64,000 bases of DNA from Fibrobacter sp. UBA4223 (GTDB lineage: Bacteria > Fibrobacterota > Fibrobacteria > Fibrobacterales > Fibrobacteraceae), in NCBI GenBank assembly GCA_002382975.1, contig DFTB01000006.1, positions 1 to 64,000 of the forward strand, read 5' to 3'. The translations under genes were made by a program, and so were the position numbers. Below the pieces are notes generated by a model. The model saw only the letters and a list, made by a program, of their open reading frames with translations. It was not told where the DNA came from and made no database searches. Positions 33,996-46,297 of this stretch are shown piece by piece (positions within the stretch are counted from its first letter, which is position 1; each line of letters starts with the position of its first letter).

Positions 33996-34031
33996 GTCAT
34001 TGCGAGGCCCGATCAGGGCCGAAGCAATCTC
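33996..34031. repeat. REP-like palindrome (CATTGCGAG...AAGCAATCT type)
   Basis: Nested inverted repeat: inner stem GGCCC-gatca-GGGCC, outer stem ATTGC / GCAAT. It resembles the dispersed intergenic palindromes beginning GTCATTGCGAGG seen in many bacterial genomes (known as a general type). It is the first member of a repeat cluster extending to about 34170. Confidence 0.7.
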
Positions 34032-34079: not shown

Positions 34080-34119
34080 GTGTCATCCTGAGCGGAACGA
34101 AGTGGAGTCGAAGGATCTA
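34080..34119. repeat. Solo copy of the GIY-YIG unit's terminal repeat
   Basis: Begins GTGTCATCCTGAGCG and ends GTCGAAGGATCTA, the same ends as the two inverted repeats at 44066 and 44400, with a different 12-nt middle. No nuclease ORF is attached. It lies between two GC-rich hairpins. Confidence 0.85.
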
Positions 34120-40564: not shown

Positions 40565-42271
40565 ATGATGTCCCCCCTCAAAGTCCTTCTTTCCATCATC
40601 AGCCTGTTCGTCGTCCTCGGCGTTATCGCCGTGGTCTATCCTGACGGTGGCATCAAGGTGGGCGAATACACCCTGCGCTACCCGAAGCTCACCGACATCT
40701 TCGAAAAGCAGGCGCCCAAGGACTCCACCGCCGACTCTACGGCAGTGGACCCCGAAGAGGCCATCCGGGAAATGATGGAAGCCACCAAGAGGAAGGAATT
40801 TGCGGCCTACAGCGACTCCCTCAAGTACTACGAGGACTTTTTCAAGAGCGGCAAGACCCGCTTCGACCTGCCGGGGGATGACCCCGCCTGGTTCGACCGT
40901 TTCTTCTTGCACCTTCAGCTCGCGGAACTGGACAGCAACGTGGTCCACATCGTCCACTACGGCGACTCCCAGCTGGAAGAAGACCGCATTTCCGCCACCA
41001 TCCGCGAAGACCTGCAGGCTGAATTCGGCGGCGCGGGCCCGGGCATGATGCCGCCTATCCTCACCATCCCTTCCCAGACCACCAGCCATTGGAACGAAGG
41101 GGAACTCAAGCGCTACATATTGTTCGGTCCCAAGGAAGAAGAGGCGGACCACAACCGCTACGGCCCCCTGGCCCAGTTCGCCGACCTGGAAGGATCCGCC
41201 GTCATCGGCATCAAGAAACGGGAAGACCGCAAGAACGCCTTCCCCCACGTAGGCGGCTACTCTACGGTAAAGGTCCTCGCCGGCAAGCGTGGGTCGCTAC
41301 GGCTCAAGCTGGTTTACCAGCGCACCTACGCAGACACCGTGGGCCTGAACGAAGACAGCACCTTCAAGGTGAAAAAGCGCACCGCCTTCGAGACGGCGGC
41401 CGCCCCCGAAGTGGAACGGATGACCAAGCTCAACGTCTATACTTGGAAACTCCCGGACACCACCTCCAACGCCAAAATCTACCTGGACGGAAGCGCCGAA
41501 ATCTACGCCATCTCCGCCGACGGCGCCTATGGCGTGGCCGTCGATAACGTGGCCATGCGAGGCTCTTCGGGCACGGTGTTCCACCGCATCGATTCACAAC
41601 TGCTGGCGGAATCTTACAAGGCCATGAACGCCCGGCTCATCATCATGGAATACGGCGGCAACCTGGTGCCGGGCACCAACAGCGGCAACGTGGACTGGAC
41701 CAAGAAGCTCATCACCAAGCAAATCCAGGCTATCCAGAAGGCGAACCCCGATGCCGACATCCTGTTCATCGGCCCCGCCGACATGGCAAAACAGGTAGAC
41801 GGCGAATGGAAAACCTACCCGGGCCTCCCCCTCACCATCAAGACCCTTCGCGAAGTGGCTCTCGAAAACGGTGCCGCCTACTGGGACATGCACCGGGTCA
41901 TGGGCGGAAACGGCTCCATGATCAAGTGGGCAAACCGCGAACCCGCTCTCGGCTTCACCGACCACATCCACTTCACCCGCCGGGGTGCCGCCTACATGGG
42001 AGACCTGTTCTGCGCGGCACTGCGCATGCACTACGACTACTTCAAGTTCCGCGACCGCCACGGCCTCAACGACGAAAAGATGAAGGAATTGCAGCAGTGG
42101 AAGGAGAATTCGGAATTAGGGCAAGACAGTTCTGCCAGCGAAACAAAGGGGGAAAGCCTTCCCCCCGCTCCTGGCGCTGACGCGTCATCCGCTACCCCTT
42201 CGCCTAGGGGGACACCCCCTAACACCCCCGCACAGGATTCTAGCGTAACGAAGGAGGATGCCACCCCATGA
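40565..42271 (+). CDS. SGNH/GDSL-type hydrolase, membrane-anchored, in the O-acetylation operon
   Basis: A 568-residue protein with an N-terminal signal anchor (VLLSIISLFVVLGVIAVVY). The SGNH fold is indicated by block I VHYGDSQLEED (Ser near 135) and block V DHIHFTRRG with Asp and His; the GNxxPGTNSGN and FIGPADMA segments would be blocks II-III. It likely transfers or removes acetyl groups on an extracellular glycan together with the downstream MBOAT protein (as in AlgI/AlgJ/AlgX-type systems; inference). The last ~45 residues (SASETKGESLPPAPGADASS...) are encoded by a GC-rich intergenic-type repeat cluster. It overlaps the next gene by 4 nt. Confidence 0.84.
   Translation: MMSPLKVLLSIISLFVVLGVIAVVYPDGGIKVGEYTLRYPKLTDIFEKQAPKDSTADSTAVDPEEAIREMMEATKRKEFAAYSDSLKYYEDFFKSGKTRFDLPGDDPAWFDRFFLHLQLAELDSNVVHIVHYGDSQLEEDRISATIREDLQAEFGGAGPGMMPPILTIPSQTTSHWNEGELKRYILFGPKEEEADHNRYGPLAQFADLEGSAVIGIKKREDRKNAFPHVGGYSTVKVLAGKRGSLRLKLVYQRTYADTVGLNEDSTFKVKKRTAFETAAAPEVERMTKLNVYTWKLPDTTSNAKIYLDGSAEIYAISADGAYGVAVDNVAMRGSSGTVFHRIDSQLLAESYKAMNARLIIMEYGGNLVPGTNSGNVDWTKKLITKQIQAIQKANPDADILFIGPADMAKQVDGEWKTYPGLPLTIKTLREVALENGAAYWDMHRVMGGNGSMIKWANREPALGFTDHIHFTRRGAAYMGDLFCAALRMHYDYFKFRDRHGLNDEKMKELQQWKENSELGQDSSASETKGESLPPAPGADASSATPSPRGTPPNTPAQDSSVTKEDATP
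42148..42229. repeat. GC-rich repeat cluster read as coding sequence
   Basis: GGGGGAAAGCCTTCCCCCC (42148-42166) and TACCCC...CTAGGGGGACACCCCCTAAC (42193-42229) parallel the hairpins at 34045-34061 and 34136-34169 in the same order. Here they lie inside the 3' end of the SGNH gene. Confidence 0.65.
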
Positions 42272-44061
42272 TCCGCTTCCTCCTTGCCGTCACCCTCGCG
42301 GCCCTTTCGGCCTTCGCCAAGGACCTGACCATCGCCCCCGGCAGTTACAGTCTTGACCTCGCCAAGTACGACTTTATCGACACCACCGTAAACGTCATCC
42401 AGTTCCCCAAGGGGAACGAGGCCTTCACCAAGTTCTTCGAGAAGATGGACACTCTGGTGTTCGAGAACAAGGGGCAAGTGCGAATCATGCACATCGGCGG
42501 ATCCCACCTGCAAGCCGACGTGATTTCGGGCCGTATCCGCGAGCACATGATCAAGGAATACCCGGGAGCCTCTGCGGGCCGCGGCTTCGTGTTCCCCTAC
42601 TCCGCCGCCCGCACCAACACGCCCTCCAGCTACGCCAGCTACTACAAGGGCATCTGGGACAAGAACAAGAACGTCCAGCGGGAAATTTCAAAGCCCCTGG
42701 GCCTGCTGGGCATTGCGGTCAGCACCAGCGACCCACGTGCCGAAATCACCCTGATGCTGGACAAGTACAACTCCGCCCCCATCTGGGGAGAGACCCGTTT
42801 CCGCCTGTTCGGCTACAGCGACAACAATGACGTGGTTCCCGTGCTGCGGGTGGATTCCACCGACATCTACGGCGTACACGACACCGTAAGCCAGAGTTAC
42901 GTTTTCGAAAGCCCACGGCCCATCGACACCATCCAGATTCAGTTCCGCTGGATGGACTCCCTGAAACAGGCTTCCATAGCGCAGTTCATCAACGACTCCC
43001 TGCTGCAAGATTCCCTCGCCAGGCAGGCGGATTCCCTGAAGACGGATTCGCTGAAGTCAGACGAGAAAGGCTCGGGGTCCGAGGCTCGAGGTGCGGTTTT
43101 GGACGGCAAAGATTCCAGCAAGACAGAAAAGGCAAAAGTTCCGGCCAACGTTTTGAACCTGCAGAACGCACAAGTGCAAAACGCAGCGCCAGAGGTGGCG
43201 CGTGACTCCATGTTCCAGGGGGAATGCGACGTGCTGGACACCGCCTGTCTCGCCCGCGAAGAAGCCAAGACCAAGGATTCTACGGCCCGCGACCGGTGCG
43301 CCGAACTGGCAGCCAAGAAGGCGAACATCAACTACGAAGAAGGGGAACAGGACCCCACCAACAATCCTGACGACCACTGCTTCACGGAACCTGCAGCAGT
43401 CCCAGACTCTGTCAAGAAAAATGCACGACCCAGGTTCACCCTCACGGGAATCCTTTCCGAAAACGACTCTCCGGGTATCATCTACACCAACGTAGGCATC
43501 AACGGTGCGAAGGTCCACGACTACTTCGAAGAGGTCTGCCCCCAGTTCGAAAAAGAGATGGCGTTTTTCAAGCCGGACCTGGTAATTTTCGCCATCGGCA
43601 TCAACGACGCCAACGTGCAGCGCTTTAACGACAAGCAGTTCCGTGAAGATTACGACAAACTGATTGAACGGTTCAGGAAGGTGAACCCCGACGCGGCGTT
43701 CATCTTCGAGACCAACAATGACATGTTCCGCAAGGTCAAGCGGAAAAAGTTCGTGCAGCACGGCAATGGCGAAGTGGCCCGCAAGTCCTTCTTTATGCTG
43801 GCCGACAAGCACAAGGCTGGCGTCTGGGACAAGTTCAGCATCATGGGCGGCCTAGGTTCCATGGCCAAGTGGGAACACGCAAGCCTCGCCAAAAAAGACA
43901 AGGTCCACTTCAACCTGTCCGGCTACAACCTTTTGGGCGACCTGTTCTACAAGGCCCTTATCCAGGCCTACCAGGACCACATCGCCAATTTACCCGCACA
44001 GAAGAAGCAAGAGAACAAGCCTACGGCTCCACAGACGAAAGACGAAAGAGGCAACAGGTAA
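42268..44061 (+). CDS. SGNH-like periplasmic protein with GGSH block I
   Basis: A 597-residue exported protein (signal MIRFLLAVTLAALSAFA). Block I reads MHIGGSHLQADV (Ser near 79), with Gly in place of the usual Asp before Ser. Block III is FAIGINDANVQ, and block V KDKVHFNLSGY carries Asp and His. A ~130-residue charged, low-complexity insertion (about 235-375; SLARQADSLKTDSLKSDEK) splits the fold. The family is common beside MBOAT proteins in glycan O-acetylation loci (known), so it is a probable acetyltransferase or esterase. The start overlaps the upstream stop (ATGA), with AAGGAGG upstream. Its 3' end carries 7-bp units. Confidence 0.82.
   Translation: MIRFLLAVTLAALSAFAKDLTIAPGSYSLDLAKYDFIDTTVNVIQFPKGNEAFTKFFEKMDTLVFENKGQVRIMHIGGSHLQADVISGRIREHMIKEYPGASAGRGFVFPYSAARTNTPSSYASYYKGIWDKNKNVQREISKPLGLLGIAVSTSDPRAEITLMLDKYNSAPIWGETRFRLFGYSDNNDVVPVLRVDSTDIYGVHDTVSQSYVFESPRPIDTIQIQFRWMDSLKQASIAQFINDSLLQDSLARQADSLKTDSLKSDEKGSGSEARGAVLDGKDSSKTEKAKVPANVLNLQNAQVQNAAPEVARDSMFQGECDVLDTACLAREEAKTKDSTARDRCAELAAKKANINYEEGEQDPTNNPDDHCFTEPAAVPDSVKKNARPRFTLTGILSENDSPGIIYTNVGINGAKVHDYFEEVCPQFEKEMAFFKPDLVIFAIGINDANVQRFNDKQFREDYDKLIERFRKVNPDAAFIFETNNDMFRKVKRKKFVQHGNGEVARKSFFMLADKHKAGVWDKFSIMGGLGSMAKWEHASLAKKDKVHFNLSGYNLLGDLFYKALIQAYQDHIANLPAQKKQENKPTAPQTKDERGNR
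44034..44061. repeat. Short heptad array at the 3' end of the second SGNH gene
   Basis: Units GACGAAA twice, GAGGCAA, CAGGTAA. They encode the final residues TKDERGNR and the stop. They are similar to the GAAAGAC arrays at 4871 and 33937 and directly precede the GIY-YIG unit. Confidence 0.55.
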
Positions 44062-44065
44062 GCAC

Positions 44066-44112
44066 AGTGTCATCCTGAGCGAAGAACCGAAGGTTCGTAG
44101 CCGAAGGATCTA
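44066..44112 (+). repeat. Left inverted repeat of the GIY-YIG unit
   Basis: 47 bp from AGTGTCATCC to AAGGATCTA. It contains the inner hairpin GAACC-gaa-GGTTC. It pairs with 44400-44444 and matches the solo copy at 34080-34119. Confidence 0.88.
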
Positions 44113-44117
44113 ATAAG

Positions 44118-44402
44118 ATGTCAAATAGCTACTACACATATATGATGACAAATCAAAGTAACTCCACTCTATATATTGGGGTCACTAACGATATTGAACG
44201 TCGTGTACTTGAACATATAAGCGGAAGTGGTGCAAAATTCACATCAAAGTATAAAATCAAAAAAATTGTTTATTTTGAACGCTATACCGAAATAACAGAT
44301 GCTATCGCAAGAGAGAAACAATTAAAAGGTTGGAAAAGAGAAAAGAAAAATAATCTGATAAATCAAATGAACCCAGAATGGAGGAACCTAATGAAGGACT
44401 AG
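44118..44402 (+). CDS. GIY-YIG family nuclease, small single-domain type
   Basis: A 94-residue stand-alone GIY-YIG domain. The first motif is YTY (residues 6-8) and the second is YIG (19-21, LYIGVTND). Probable catalytic residues are Arg29 in IERRVLEH and Glu66 in AREKQLKGW; the C-terminal NPEWRNL is typical of the subfamily. The family cleaves DNA with a metal ion (known); the substrate here is unknown. It lacks the extra DNA-binding domain of intron homing enzymes. It is far more AT-rich than the two SGNH genes and the MBOAT gene around it. AGGA lies 9 nt before ATG within the flanking repeat. Confidence 0.9.
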   Translation: MSNSYYTYMMTNQSNSTLYIGVTNDIERRVLEHISGSGAKFTSKYKIKKIVYFERYTEITDAIAREKQLKGWKREKKNNLINQMNPEWRNLMKD

Positions 44403-44444
44403 ATCCTTCGACTACGGGCGATGCCCTCCGCTCAGGATGACACT
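44400..44444 (-). repeat. Right inverted repeat of the GIY-YIG unit
   Basis: 45 bp, the reverse complement of the left repeat except for 12 inner nucleotides (GAGGGCATCGCC on the minus strand, itself a small hairpin GGGC-at-cGCCC). It overlaps the nuclease stop codon and ends 2 bp before the MBOAT ATG. Confidence 0.88.
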
Positions 44445-44446
44445 TT

Positions 44447-46297
44447 ATGTTGGATTACTTGATACCATATCTTACTAGAACGTTTTCGTTTGACCCGAAC
44501 AGCCCCCTGCTGTTTACGCAGTTCTACTTCTGGGGTTTCTTCGCCGTGGTGTTTGCCATCCTCACCCTGATCAAGAACCGCATTCTGCTCCGTAACGCCT
44601 TCTTGTTTGCCACCAGCATGTTCTTCTATTACAAGACCAGCGGAAGCTACGTGTGCATTCTCGTGTTCTGCGTGGTGGCGAACTTCTTTATTGGCAAGTG
44701 GATCGAAAAGGCCGAACAGCACTGGAAAAAGAAACTCTGGATGATCATCGTGGTCATTATCGACCTGTTGGTGCTGTGCTACTACAAGTATTCCTATTTC
44801 TTCCTGGACGCCCTGCGGGACTTTACCGGCATCGAGCTGCACGTCTATAACTTCTTTGCGGCGGCCAGCAACAAGATGTTCGGTACCCACTCCCTAGTAG
44901 ATACCATCATCTTGCCGGTGGGCATTTCCTTCTTTACCTTCCAGGCCATCAGTTACTGCATCGACATCTACCGCGGAAAAATCAAAGCTGTTGACAACAT
45001 CTTGAATTTCGGGTTCTACCTCACCTTTTTCCCACAGTTGGTGGCAGGCCCCATCGTCCGTGCCGACAAGTTCGTGCCCCAGCTTTACAAGAAGTATTTC
45101 CTCCCCCGCCGCACCTTCGGTATTGCCGTGTTCTGGGTGCTGAACGGACTTGCCAAGAAGGTCATCTTGAGCGACTACCTGGCCACCAACTTTGTGGACC
45201 GGGTATTCGACACGCCCCTGCTGTTCACCGGACTTGAAAACCTGATTGCCCTGTTCGCCTATTCGCTGCAGGTGTATGCCGACTTCTCGGGCTACACCGA
45301 CATCGCCATCGGCGTAGCTCTCCTGATGGGATTCCGCCTGCCCCAGAACTTCAACAGTCCCTACAAGGCGCTCTCCCCCACAGAATTCTGGCGGCGCTGG
45401 CACATCTCCCTTTCCAGTTGGTGGCGCGACTACCTGTACATCCCCCTGGGCGGTAACCGCGGTGCCTCTGTGGGTACCTTCTTCTGGATGGGATTCTTGA
45501 GCCTGGTGGCCGTTTTACTTTCGGGCAGTGTCTGGGTAGGTGTCGCCCTGGGCGTATTCTTCCTCTACATCGCCATTTATGCCTACGTCAAGCCCGACTC
45601 CCGCAAGTTTATCACCACCAACATGAACGCCATGGCGACACAGGTCGTAGGCGGCTGGTGGCACGGCGCCAGCTGGAACTTTATCATCTGGGGTGGCCTC
45701 AATGGTTTCGGCCAGGTGTTCAACAAGATCTGGGTCAAGCGGAGCATCAACTTCCGTGCCGTCGCCGCATTCTTGCTGTTTGCCGCCAGCGCCATCACCT
45801 TCAAGCAGACCCACATCGCCATTTTCGCCATTACCACCGTGTGGTTCGGCGTGCTGTTCCTGGGCATTTACGCCGTGCTGGTTTTCCGCCTGTTCAGTGA
45901 CAAGACCTTCCACTGGCTCTACGTGGCCTGGAACGTATCCCTCACCTTCGTGTTCATCACCTTTACCCGTCTCTTCTTCCGCGCAGGCTCCAACCTGGAC
46001 CCGGCAGAGGCCAACGAAGTGGCCTGGAACACCGCCAAGAACATGGTCCAGCAGATGGGTACCGCTTGGAAGTGGGATACTCTCGGCACCATCGCCTGGG
46101 AACACATCAACATCATTTTGGTGTTTGTAGCCGGCATGCTCATCCACTGGATTCCCAAAAAATTCAAGAGCCGCTACCGCATCATGTTCGCCTCGCAGCC
46201 CATCCCCCTGATGGTTGCAAGCACGGCGTTCATCATCTTCGTGATGTACCAGTTCATGAGCGCGGACAGCTGCCCGTTTATCTACTTCCAGTTCTAG
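44447..46297 (+). CDS. MBOAT O-acyltransferase, AlgI type
   Basis: A 616-residue polytopic inner-membrane protein of the membrane-bound O-acyltransferase family. Seen: the AlgI-type motif WRRWHISLSSWWRDYLYIPLGGN (about 310-335) and the catalytic His in GGWWHGASWNFIIWG near residue 405, with many hydrophobic helices. It should pass acetyl groups across the membrane to the SGNH partners encoded just upstream, which would modify an exported polysaccharide (inference). ATG 44447 relies on AGGA inside the right repeat of the GIY-YIG unit, 9 nt upstream. A heptad pair follows the stop. Confidence 0.92.
   Translation: MLDYLIPYLTRTFSFDPNSPLLFTQFYFWGFFAVVFAILTLIKNRILLRNAFLFATSMFFYYKTSGSYVCILVFCVVANFFIGKWIEKAEQHWKKKLWMIIVVIIDLLVLCYYKYSYFFLDALRDFTGIELHVYNFFAAASNKMFGTHSLVDTIILPVGISFFTFQAISYCIDIYRGKIKAVDNILNFGFYLTFFPQLVAGPIVRADKFVPQLYKKYFLPRRTFGIAVFWVLNGLAKKVILSDYLATNFVDRVFDTPLLFTGLENLIALFAYSLQVYADFSGYTDIAIGVALLMGFRLPQNFNSPYKALSPTEFWRRWHISLSSWWRDYLYIPLGGNRGASVGTFFWMGFLSLVAVLLSGSVWVGVALGVFFLYIAIYAYVKPDSRKFITTNMNAMATQVVGGWWHGASWNFIIWGGLNGFGQVFNKIWVKRSINFRAVAAFLLFAASAITFKQTHIAIFAITTVWFGVLFLGIYAVLVFRLFSDKTFHWLYVAWNVSLTFVFITFTRLFFRAGSNLDPAEANEVAWNTAKNMVQQMGTAWKWDTLGTIAWEHINIILVFVAGMLIHWIPKKFKSRYRIMFASQPIPLMVASTAFIIFVMYQFMSADSCPFIYFQF

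Follow-up and report, generated by a model that had tools for sequence, protein, structure and literature searches.

The closest described counterpart of the unit analysed here is the RAYT (TnpA-REP) transposase with its REPs and REPINs. In both, a small nuclease gene lies between inverted REPs, many lone copies and pairs of the repeat occur elsewhere, and each of several REP families has its own enzyme. A gene framed by a dispersed palindromic repeat, a feature of the RAYT/REPtron, is found in the window (the 64,000-nucleotide stretch of Fibrobacter sp. UBA4223 DNA studied here) and at the level of the family. The window enzyme, however, is a GIY-YIG protein in which Pfam finds no Y1_Tnp (HUH tyrosine) domain, and its REPs start with GTGTCAT (head GTC followed by AT), whereas RAYT REPs are tagged with GTAG. 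We know of no transposase chemistry for GIY-YIG enzymes.

A second counterpart is formed by GIY-YIG 'Ssn' site-specific single-strand nucleases, which, in a 2025 Nature Communications paper, reportedly act on a Neisseria repeat and affect transformation; many homologues are said to exist, each with its own sequences. The gonococcal homologue of the window protein (Neisseria gonorrhoeae, 42% identity over 88 residues) is presumably an Ssn. Both are small GIY-YIG proteins tied to a dispersed repeat, the window protein through association and a weak covariation of core and protein, with cleavage of single-stranded DNA by the window protein a prediction; a proposed REP-framed mobile cassette, insertion polymorphism and a link to CGTC REPs would be the additions here. 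The preliminary description had held a GIY-YIG nuclease in such a role to be undescribed, and this needs qualification: on the reported properties of Ssn, both the class of enzyme and the fact that it pairs with repeats would be known already, and the mobile cassette and the CGTC link would be what is added. In the titles and abstract openings searched, which lie outside preprints and most subscription papers, a link between GIY-YIG and REPs was not met, and we do not claim its absence from print.

REPs have been divided into a GTAG and a CGTC superfamily, the latter including Neisseria dRS3 (Di Nocera et al. 2013, PMC3733652). According to that article, CGTC REPs occur in five phyla, with S. 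meliloti, A. lipoferum, N. aromaticivorans and Neisseria (dRS3) among the taxa named, 'apparently lack a dedicated transposase', and consist of a head CGTC or TGTC, a stem beginning with AT and a short tail, often CCA; families 1–4 have an 8–9 bp stem and a 4–5 nt loop (PMC3733652). The term GIY-YIG has a count of 0 in the article, and we found GIY-YIG homologues in the taxa that it names. The window REPs have this head and AT-first stem (GTGTC followed by AT). Unlike families 1–4, their stems are imperfect, their inner parts longer and variable, and their loop is not short; by eye, the relatives in A. lipoferum, S. meliloti and Rhizobium fit the 8–9 bp stem and 4–5 nt loop. Since GTCA[TC] was a search requirement at the family level, only the T that follows GTCA in 156 of 175 flanking REPs is informative there. 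The tails, which were not selected for, begin with C in at least 156 of the 175 and read CCA in 29; the window tail is CTA.

Architecture of the unit at 44066–44444

The unit at 44066–44444 consists of two head-out palindromes, GTGTCATCCTGAGCG...CGAAGGATCTA, around one 94-aa GIY-YIG gene. It is located between two plus-strand operon genes, an SGNH/GDSL-type gene upstream (42268–44061; Pfam Lipase_GDSL_2) and an MBOAT O-acyltransferase family gene downstream (44447–46297; Pfam MBOAT), which are neighbours at all 29 junctions read, own genome included. Both repeats are about 45 nt long and inverted, with heads GTGTCATCC... facing outward. Specifically, the left REP (44066–44113, plus strand) has the head GTGTC, an outer stem ATCCT/AGGAT and the tail CTAA, while the right REP occupies 44400–44444 on the minus strand. 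The outer ends (44066–44081 and 44429–44444) are exact reverse complements over 16 nt, as seen by direct reading and by a repeat search, which also returned outer arms of 19 nt at 95% (44066–44084/44426–44444) and inner arms of 17 nt at 94% (44096–44112/44400–44416). The GIY-YIG ORF (44118–44402, plus strand) ends within the right REP, its stop codon TAG (44400–44402) being the first plus-strand triplet of that repeat. Each repeat carries an AGGA (44105–44108 and 44434–44437) 9 nt 5′ of an ATG, that of the GIY-YIG gene (44118) and that of the MBOAT gene (44447), respectively. The ribosome site that the unit would thereby lend to the MBOAT gene is a putative one, read from this arrangement; in relatives that lack the unit, MBOAT still follows SGNH at a short distance (about 0–41 nt, or 115 nt in G022). 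The G + C content is 0.377 for the unit and 0.326 for its ORF, against 0.569 for the SGNH gene and 0.544 for the MBOAT gene. Re-reading therefore bears out the preliminary description of inverted repeats around a sole 94-aa GIY-YIG ORF with its stop in the right repeat, of an AGGA 9 nt before each following ATG, and of a unit more AT-rich than both neighbours. Its account of the repeats as palindromes stands in part: the inverted pair is real, and each member is an imperfect palindrome with a 5-bp outer stem and a longer inner part. As single-stranded DNA, the left one folds somewhat better than shuffled sequences (z −1.98; 8 of 200 shuffles equally good) and the right one no better (z 0.16).

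The protein is a single domain of 94 residues (mean pLDDT of the structure model 91.9). Pfam assigns it to GIY-YIG (PF01541, 60.7 bits), with a borderline T5orf172 match, and NCBIfam has no named family for it, its best match there falling under the cut-off. The best solved match, by both sequence and Foldseek, is 1zg2 of UPF0213 (solved also as 1ywl), a family of single-domain GIY-YIG proteins of similar size; Slx1, a branched-DNA nuclease, is among the nearest solved folds. Unlike Slx1 and GIY-YIG homing endonucleases such as I-TevI, the window protein has neither a partner, nor an extra DNA-binding domain, nor an intron: its one domain leaves no place for the separate catalytic and DNA-binding domains of I-TevI, and its putative target is the end repeat of its own element. 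Residues Y8, Y19, R29, E66 and N85 are conserved at 99–100% among 134 proteins, and dN/dS is 0.04–0.09 in four pairs; to judge from these comparisons, the catalytic residues are kept under purifying selection. The closest named relative among the best 80 of 563 loci is from a Fibrobacter succinogenes MAG (L056, 81% protein identity).

Five GIY-YIG genes of the window subfamily lie in the own genome, and between them they use three types of palindrome (TCCTGAG, TTGCGAG and CCCCG), of which CCCCG is common to three near-copies inside larger repeats. In three Fibrobacter GIY-YIG proteins (L136, L142 and L139), the C-terminus resembles, by eye, the right REP read as codons (SPTKSGKT, PSRGRQ), and the gene would there extend into the repeat. 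Five Fibrobacter genomes carry yet another small GIY-YIG gene, of a third type (MSSYMYILKCSDGSYYTGSTR...; L200–L204), with similar downstream DNA and without paired REPs.

Palindromes beside GIY-YIG genes in other genomes

The end repeat is dispersed. With up to one mismatch, GTCATCCTGAGCG is found at 4 places in the window, where chance would give 0.11. The own genome has 17 exact copies, 2 of which frame the window GIY-YIG gene, and 18 exact copies of TCATCCTGAGCG; the reversed controls gave 0 and none. The 18 copies have a common head, a mostly common tail, and a variable, often self-complementary middle. Within the genus, GTCATCCTGAGCG is present in 36 of 37 genomes counted, with up to 84 copies (G004), and outside it, 21 of 23 genomes have 0 and two have one copy each. 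These counts, set against the reversed control, confirm the dispersed REP-like repeats that had been proposed. A motif search of the window finds a lone REP of the same type as those of the unit at 34082–34119 (plus strand; GTCATCCTGAGCG...CGAAGGATCT), which shares one intergenic space with a lone REP of a different family at 33996–34030 (GTCATTGCGAGG...CGAAGCAATCT). Elsewhere, at G000:C17:54256-54604 (L014), two REPs that point the same way and lie 336 nt from each other surround a small ORF, non-GIY-YIG by eye, that adjoins a gene resembling a restriction specificity subunit.

For the wider family, an alignment of three GIY-YIG proteins of the own genome served as query, and the loci were the best 80 of 563, which span about 20 phylum-level groups as counted from record titles. 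Heads were defined independently of the window core, as GTC followed by AT plus 3 nt whose complement follows, at most 150 nt from the gene; 74 of the 80 loci were used, those with a flank below 150 nt being dropped. In these 74 of the best 80 of 563, GTCAT hairpins stand on both sides of 46 small GIY-YIG genes, compared with 3 of 1273 shifted positions, and on at least one side of 61, compared with 116 of 1273. Other ORFs of at least 150 aa in the same loci have them on both sides in 2 of 199 cases and on at least one side in 32 of 199, and five other heads are near background. The enrichment of palindromes beside other small GIY-YIG genes that the preliminary description had raised is thus found (46/74 versus 3/1273, with 0/30 among paralogs).

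A profile search of 41 Fibrobacter genomes returned 115 places, comprising 74 of the subfamily at 63 bits or more, 30 paralogs at about 39 bits or less, and 11 fragment matches, which were excluded; six of the 74, at 74 bits or less, were later separated, and the remaining 68 score 96–172 bits. The hairpin test used 70 of the 74 subfamily places and all 30 paralogs. Two-sided GTCAT hairpins were found at 34/70 subfamily places, 0/30 paralogs and 0/411 shifted positions, and hairpins on at least one side at 50/70, 9/30 and 48/411, respectively. Under a looser hairpin definition, one of the 30 paralogs is two-sided, with unlike cores. The exceptions to the one-side test, with no hairpin at all by the strict definition, number 13/74 among the best 80 of 563 and 20/70 in Fibrobacter; for 18 Fibrobacter misses, we see 11 variant heads (by eye, a post hoc judgement), 5 genes of another GIY-YIG type and 2 truncated genes. 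Identity with the second Fibrobacter GIY-YIG type, UPF0213-like by eye only, was considered and is disfavoured: it scores about 39 bits or less on the window-subfamily profile, versus 96–172 bits for the 68 members, and 0 of its 30 genes are framed by REPs on both sides.

A motif-free test gives the same picture. Here the left flank of each locus was compared with its right flank for the best match in inverted orientation, with a score threshold of 12, using 72/80 of the best loci, 64/68 Fibrobacter places, 5/6 of the third GIY-YIG type and 30/30 paralogs. The threshold is reached at 42/72 (best 80 of 563) and 38/64 loci, compared with 2/270 and 0/242 shifted positions, 16/288 and 17/256 cross-locus pairings, 0/30 paralogs and 0/5 of the third type. 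Fisher p values of the association tables range from 3e-7 to 5e-62, the loci being partly dependent. Chance is likewise disfavoured: 0.11 copies were expected against 4 in the window, and the shifted, cross-locus and other-ORF controls are far lower.

Plasmids carry the gene too. A tblastn search of plasmid records found a GIY-YIG homologue in 33, including Sinorhizobium, Rhizobium, Azospirillum, Novosphingobium, Sphingobium and Neisseria. By eye, 9 of 12 regions from the 33 have clear palindromes on both sides; in the others they are less regular (L241), present on the right only (L245) or ambiguous (L243). On plasmid AZO_p3 of Azospirillum lipoferum 4B (L236), a GIY-YIG gene with two-sided CGTC REPs sits between sufB and sufC, a further example, next to the window unit, of entry into an operon. 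In Omnitrophota and WOR-3 (L110 and L124), GIY-YIG frames of 54 and 52 aa that keep the upstream GTCAT REP are apparently decayed copies.

The two REPs of a locus resemble each other. In the 34 and 37 loci having both, left and right cores match at 6.5/8 and 6.1/8 positions within a locus and at 4.6/8 and 4.5/8 between loci. The outer stems covary: among 372 heads picked without a hairpin requirement, 297 have their own complement downstream, compared with a mean of 94 and a maximum of 115 when stems are swapped. In five loci (L063, L065, L100, L102 and L108), left and right REPs keep much of the inner core and swap compensated outer pairs, a pattern suggesting that the end is recognised by its structure. 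REP cores and protein identity are correlated when pairs above 75% identity are excluded (Mantel r 0.19, 4/1000, and 0.20, 0/1000); r is 0.13 with both sets pooled, and core similarity rises only above about 55% identity. The cores appear to track the protein weakly, and host relatedness, which the correlation includes, can contribute. REP pairs are oriented outward in 58 of 94 cases, a majority and no rule. Genomes with and without a GIY-YIG gene adjacent to a GTCATCCTGAGC REP (8 versus 29) have a median of 25 versus 14 copies, a difference short of significance (p 0.10).

Occupied, empty and decayed sites

The SGNH-MBOAT junction was compared at 30 MBOAT orthologues, that of the own genome and those of others in the genus, of which 29 were readable (two by eye) and one (G011) was excluded; G032, G009 and fragments in G015, G006 and G031 lie outside the count. 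The full unit is present at 4 of the 29 (G000, G016, G012 and G033), a lone REP of the window kind at 2 (G020 and G005) and a different palindrome at 2 (G034 and G026). The remaining 21 have no REP and a gap of about 0–41 nt; the one exception is G022, where the gap is 115 nt and which the MBOAT tree places as sister to G000 and G016. The F. succinogenes MAG (L056) also carries the unit at this junction. The insertion into an operon put forward earlier is therefore borne out by filled, lone-REP and empty states of one junction. Of the two outcomes that were to refute the earlier interpretation, presence of the unit at this site in all relatives is contradicted by the 21 of 29 without a REP, and a lack of enrichment beside other GIY-YIG genes by the counts above.

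The middle of the window left REP occurs 9 times in the 41 genomes, 4 times at this junction, the lone REP of G005 included, from which we take it that the left REP has probably long been at the site. The GIY-YIG genes of the junction do not simply track the MBOAT genes, several tree nodes being weak. Third-position identities are concordant for G000 and G016 (MBOAT 0.91, GIY-YIG 0.96) and for G000 and L056 (0.63 and 0.68), and discordant for G012 and G033 (MBOAT 0.76, GIY-YIG 0.51, the latter over 94 sites near saturation). We read this discordance as arrival of the gene more than once at a resident REP. A single old insertion, inherited vertically with many losses, would accommodate the pattern insofar as the discordance depends on 94 near-saturated sites and weak nodes; we disfavour it, as GIY-YIG genes at 0.51 are hard to fit to MBOAT genes at 0.76.

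Related units also occupy different sites. Homology between the units G004:C1 and G014:C2 covers the ORF plus 54 and 49 nt and then ends, and the unit G012:C81 matches the former over 54 and 41 nt and the latter over 55 and 49 nt around the ORF. These limits come from 70 of 149 unit pairs compared, many of which, at shared sites, have long flank homology. Twelve other genomes were searched per site, of which 7 were inspected for the G004 unit and 4 for the G014 unit. By eye, the G004 site is empty in G014 and G027, also lacks the unit in G006 and G007, holds a truncated remnant with the right REP in G001, and has a lone REP of another subtype in G061 and G019. The G014 site is empty in G027 and G008 and, by eye, carries an outward REP pair without the gene in G061 and G019; in G004 and G001, about 2.1–2.2 kb separate the flanks. 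Across three sites, the states observed are empty, lone-REP, REP-pair and decayed, as would be expected of an autonomous unit with non-coding derivatives. A target-site duplication could not be read at the sites compared, where the intergenic flanks are too poorly conserved.

The place of a TTGCGAG-type unit (L024, G000:C4:85491) is taken in G028 by a different open stretch, about 490 nt long (L279, C26), of which the own genome, by eye, keeps only the 3′ end, after the unit. With the interval thus filled, G028 was rejected as a clean empty site for this unit.

Proposed mechanism and alternatives

We consider it fairly probable that the unit, some 380 bp long, is a mobile cassette and acts as the coding member of a CGTC/GTCAT-tagged dispersed REP family, with a gene framed by outward cognate palindromes, and that its own nuclease cleaves the REP hairpin and leaves host repair to copy REPs or the cassette. 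The nuclease would recognise a hairpin with a GTC head, most probably in a REP that is single-stranded or extruded, and cleave it. Host repair would then fill the break with copies of REPs or of the entire cassette. In this way a resident REP would become REP-GIY-REP, and gene loss would leave a lone REP, a REP pair or nothing. GIY-YIG enzymes are not known to do more than hydrolyse DNA, without strand transfer, so the remaining steps would need host repair. Cleavage of the REP, and cleavage as the cause of spread, are what we infer; the comparisons suggest that GIY-YIG enzymes may help to spread a palindrome class that apparently has no dedicated transposase. Weighing against the cassette are this chemistry, the target-site duplication that could not be read, the copy-number comparison (p 0.10), the 13/74 (best 80 of 563) and 20/70 loci with no hairpin by the strict definition, the one two-sided paralog under the looser definition, the fold of the right REP, the weak link between core and protein, and the 58 of 94 outward pairs.

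Of the alternatives, the one that survives best is an Ssn-like site-specific single-strand nuclease with a host role, for instance control of DNA uptake or recombination at repeats, that travels passively. Purifying selection on the gene agrees with it, as does the position of the gonococcal homologue (42% identity) among dRS3/CGTC-type repeats, and Ssn reportedly acts on Neisseria repeats and affects transformation. A host function fits less well with patchy presence and empty sister genomes, with the truncated remnant in G001, with homology confined to ORF and REPs for some units at different sites, and with several unlike units per genome; we hold it to be rather unlikely, with perhaps one chance in a handful.

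It is improbable, in our estimate, that RAYT/IS200-type transposases or another host system move the REPs and carry the GIY-YIG gene along as a passenger because two REPs happen to enclose it. Lone REPs do far outnumber cassettes, as a passenger would have it (17 exact GTCATCCTGAGCG copies in the own genome, 2 of them framing the window gene). Y1_Tnp, however, is found in 13 of 41 genus genomes, some of which are incomplete, versus GTCATCCTGAGCG in 36 of 37; a GTCAT hairpin lies within 450 nt at 1 of 6 Y1_Tnp loci examined; and a random passenger would not be expected to belong to a single gene family that has cognate REPs in each of about 20 groups. RAYT as the mover is disfavoured by the 28 of 41 genomes in which Y1_Tnp was not found, and by REP counts that are indifferent to it (11 genomes with versus 26 without, median 20 versus 14, p 0.51).

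Mere coincidence, a small gene acquired horizontally that came to lie in intergenic space rich in REPs, is very improbable. A nearby REP is indeed seen also at 9/30 GIY-YIG paralogs and 32/199 other ORFs, but two-sided framing falls to 0/30, 2/199 and 3/1273 in controls against 46/74 (best 80 of 563) and 34/70, and cores match at 6.5/8 and 6.1/8 within loci against 4.6/8 and 4.5/8 between them. We therefore favour the nuclease-driven cassette, followed by the Ssn-like host nuclease, the RAYT passenger and coincidence, in this order.

In our reading, the life cycle of the cassette would parallel that of RAYT and REP, with an unrelated enzyme. More tentatively, at somewhat below even odds, small GIY-YIG nucleases may be the missing mobilisers of the whole CGTC/GTCAT REP superfamily across bacteria, homing into resident REPs by cutting their hairpins, in which case HUH RAYTs (GTAG) and GIY-YIG enzymes (CGTC) would have independently built the same life cycle. 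A partner gene that is statistically firm across many phyla opens the question of the CGTC mover to experiment, with an enzyme of 94 aa and a DNA of 45 nt. Should the proposal be true, the evolution of REP populations around a nuclease would have happened at least twice, with unrelated enzymes, and many small nucleases in genomes would carry their own likely target site alongside them.
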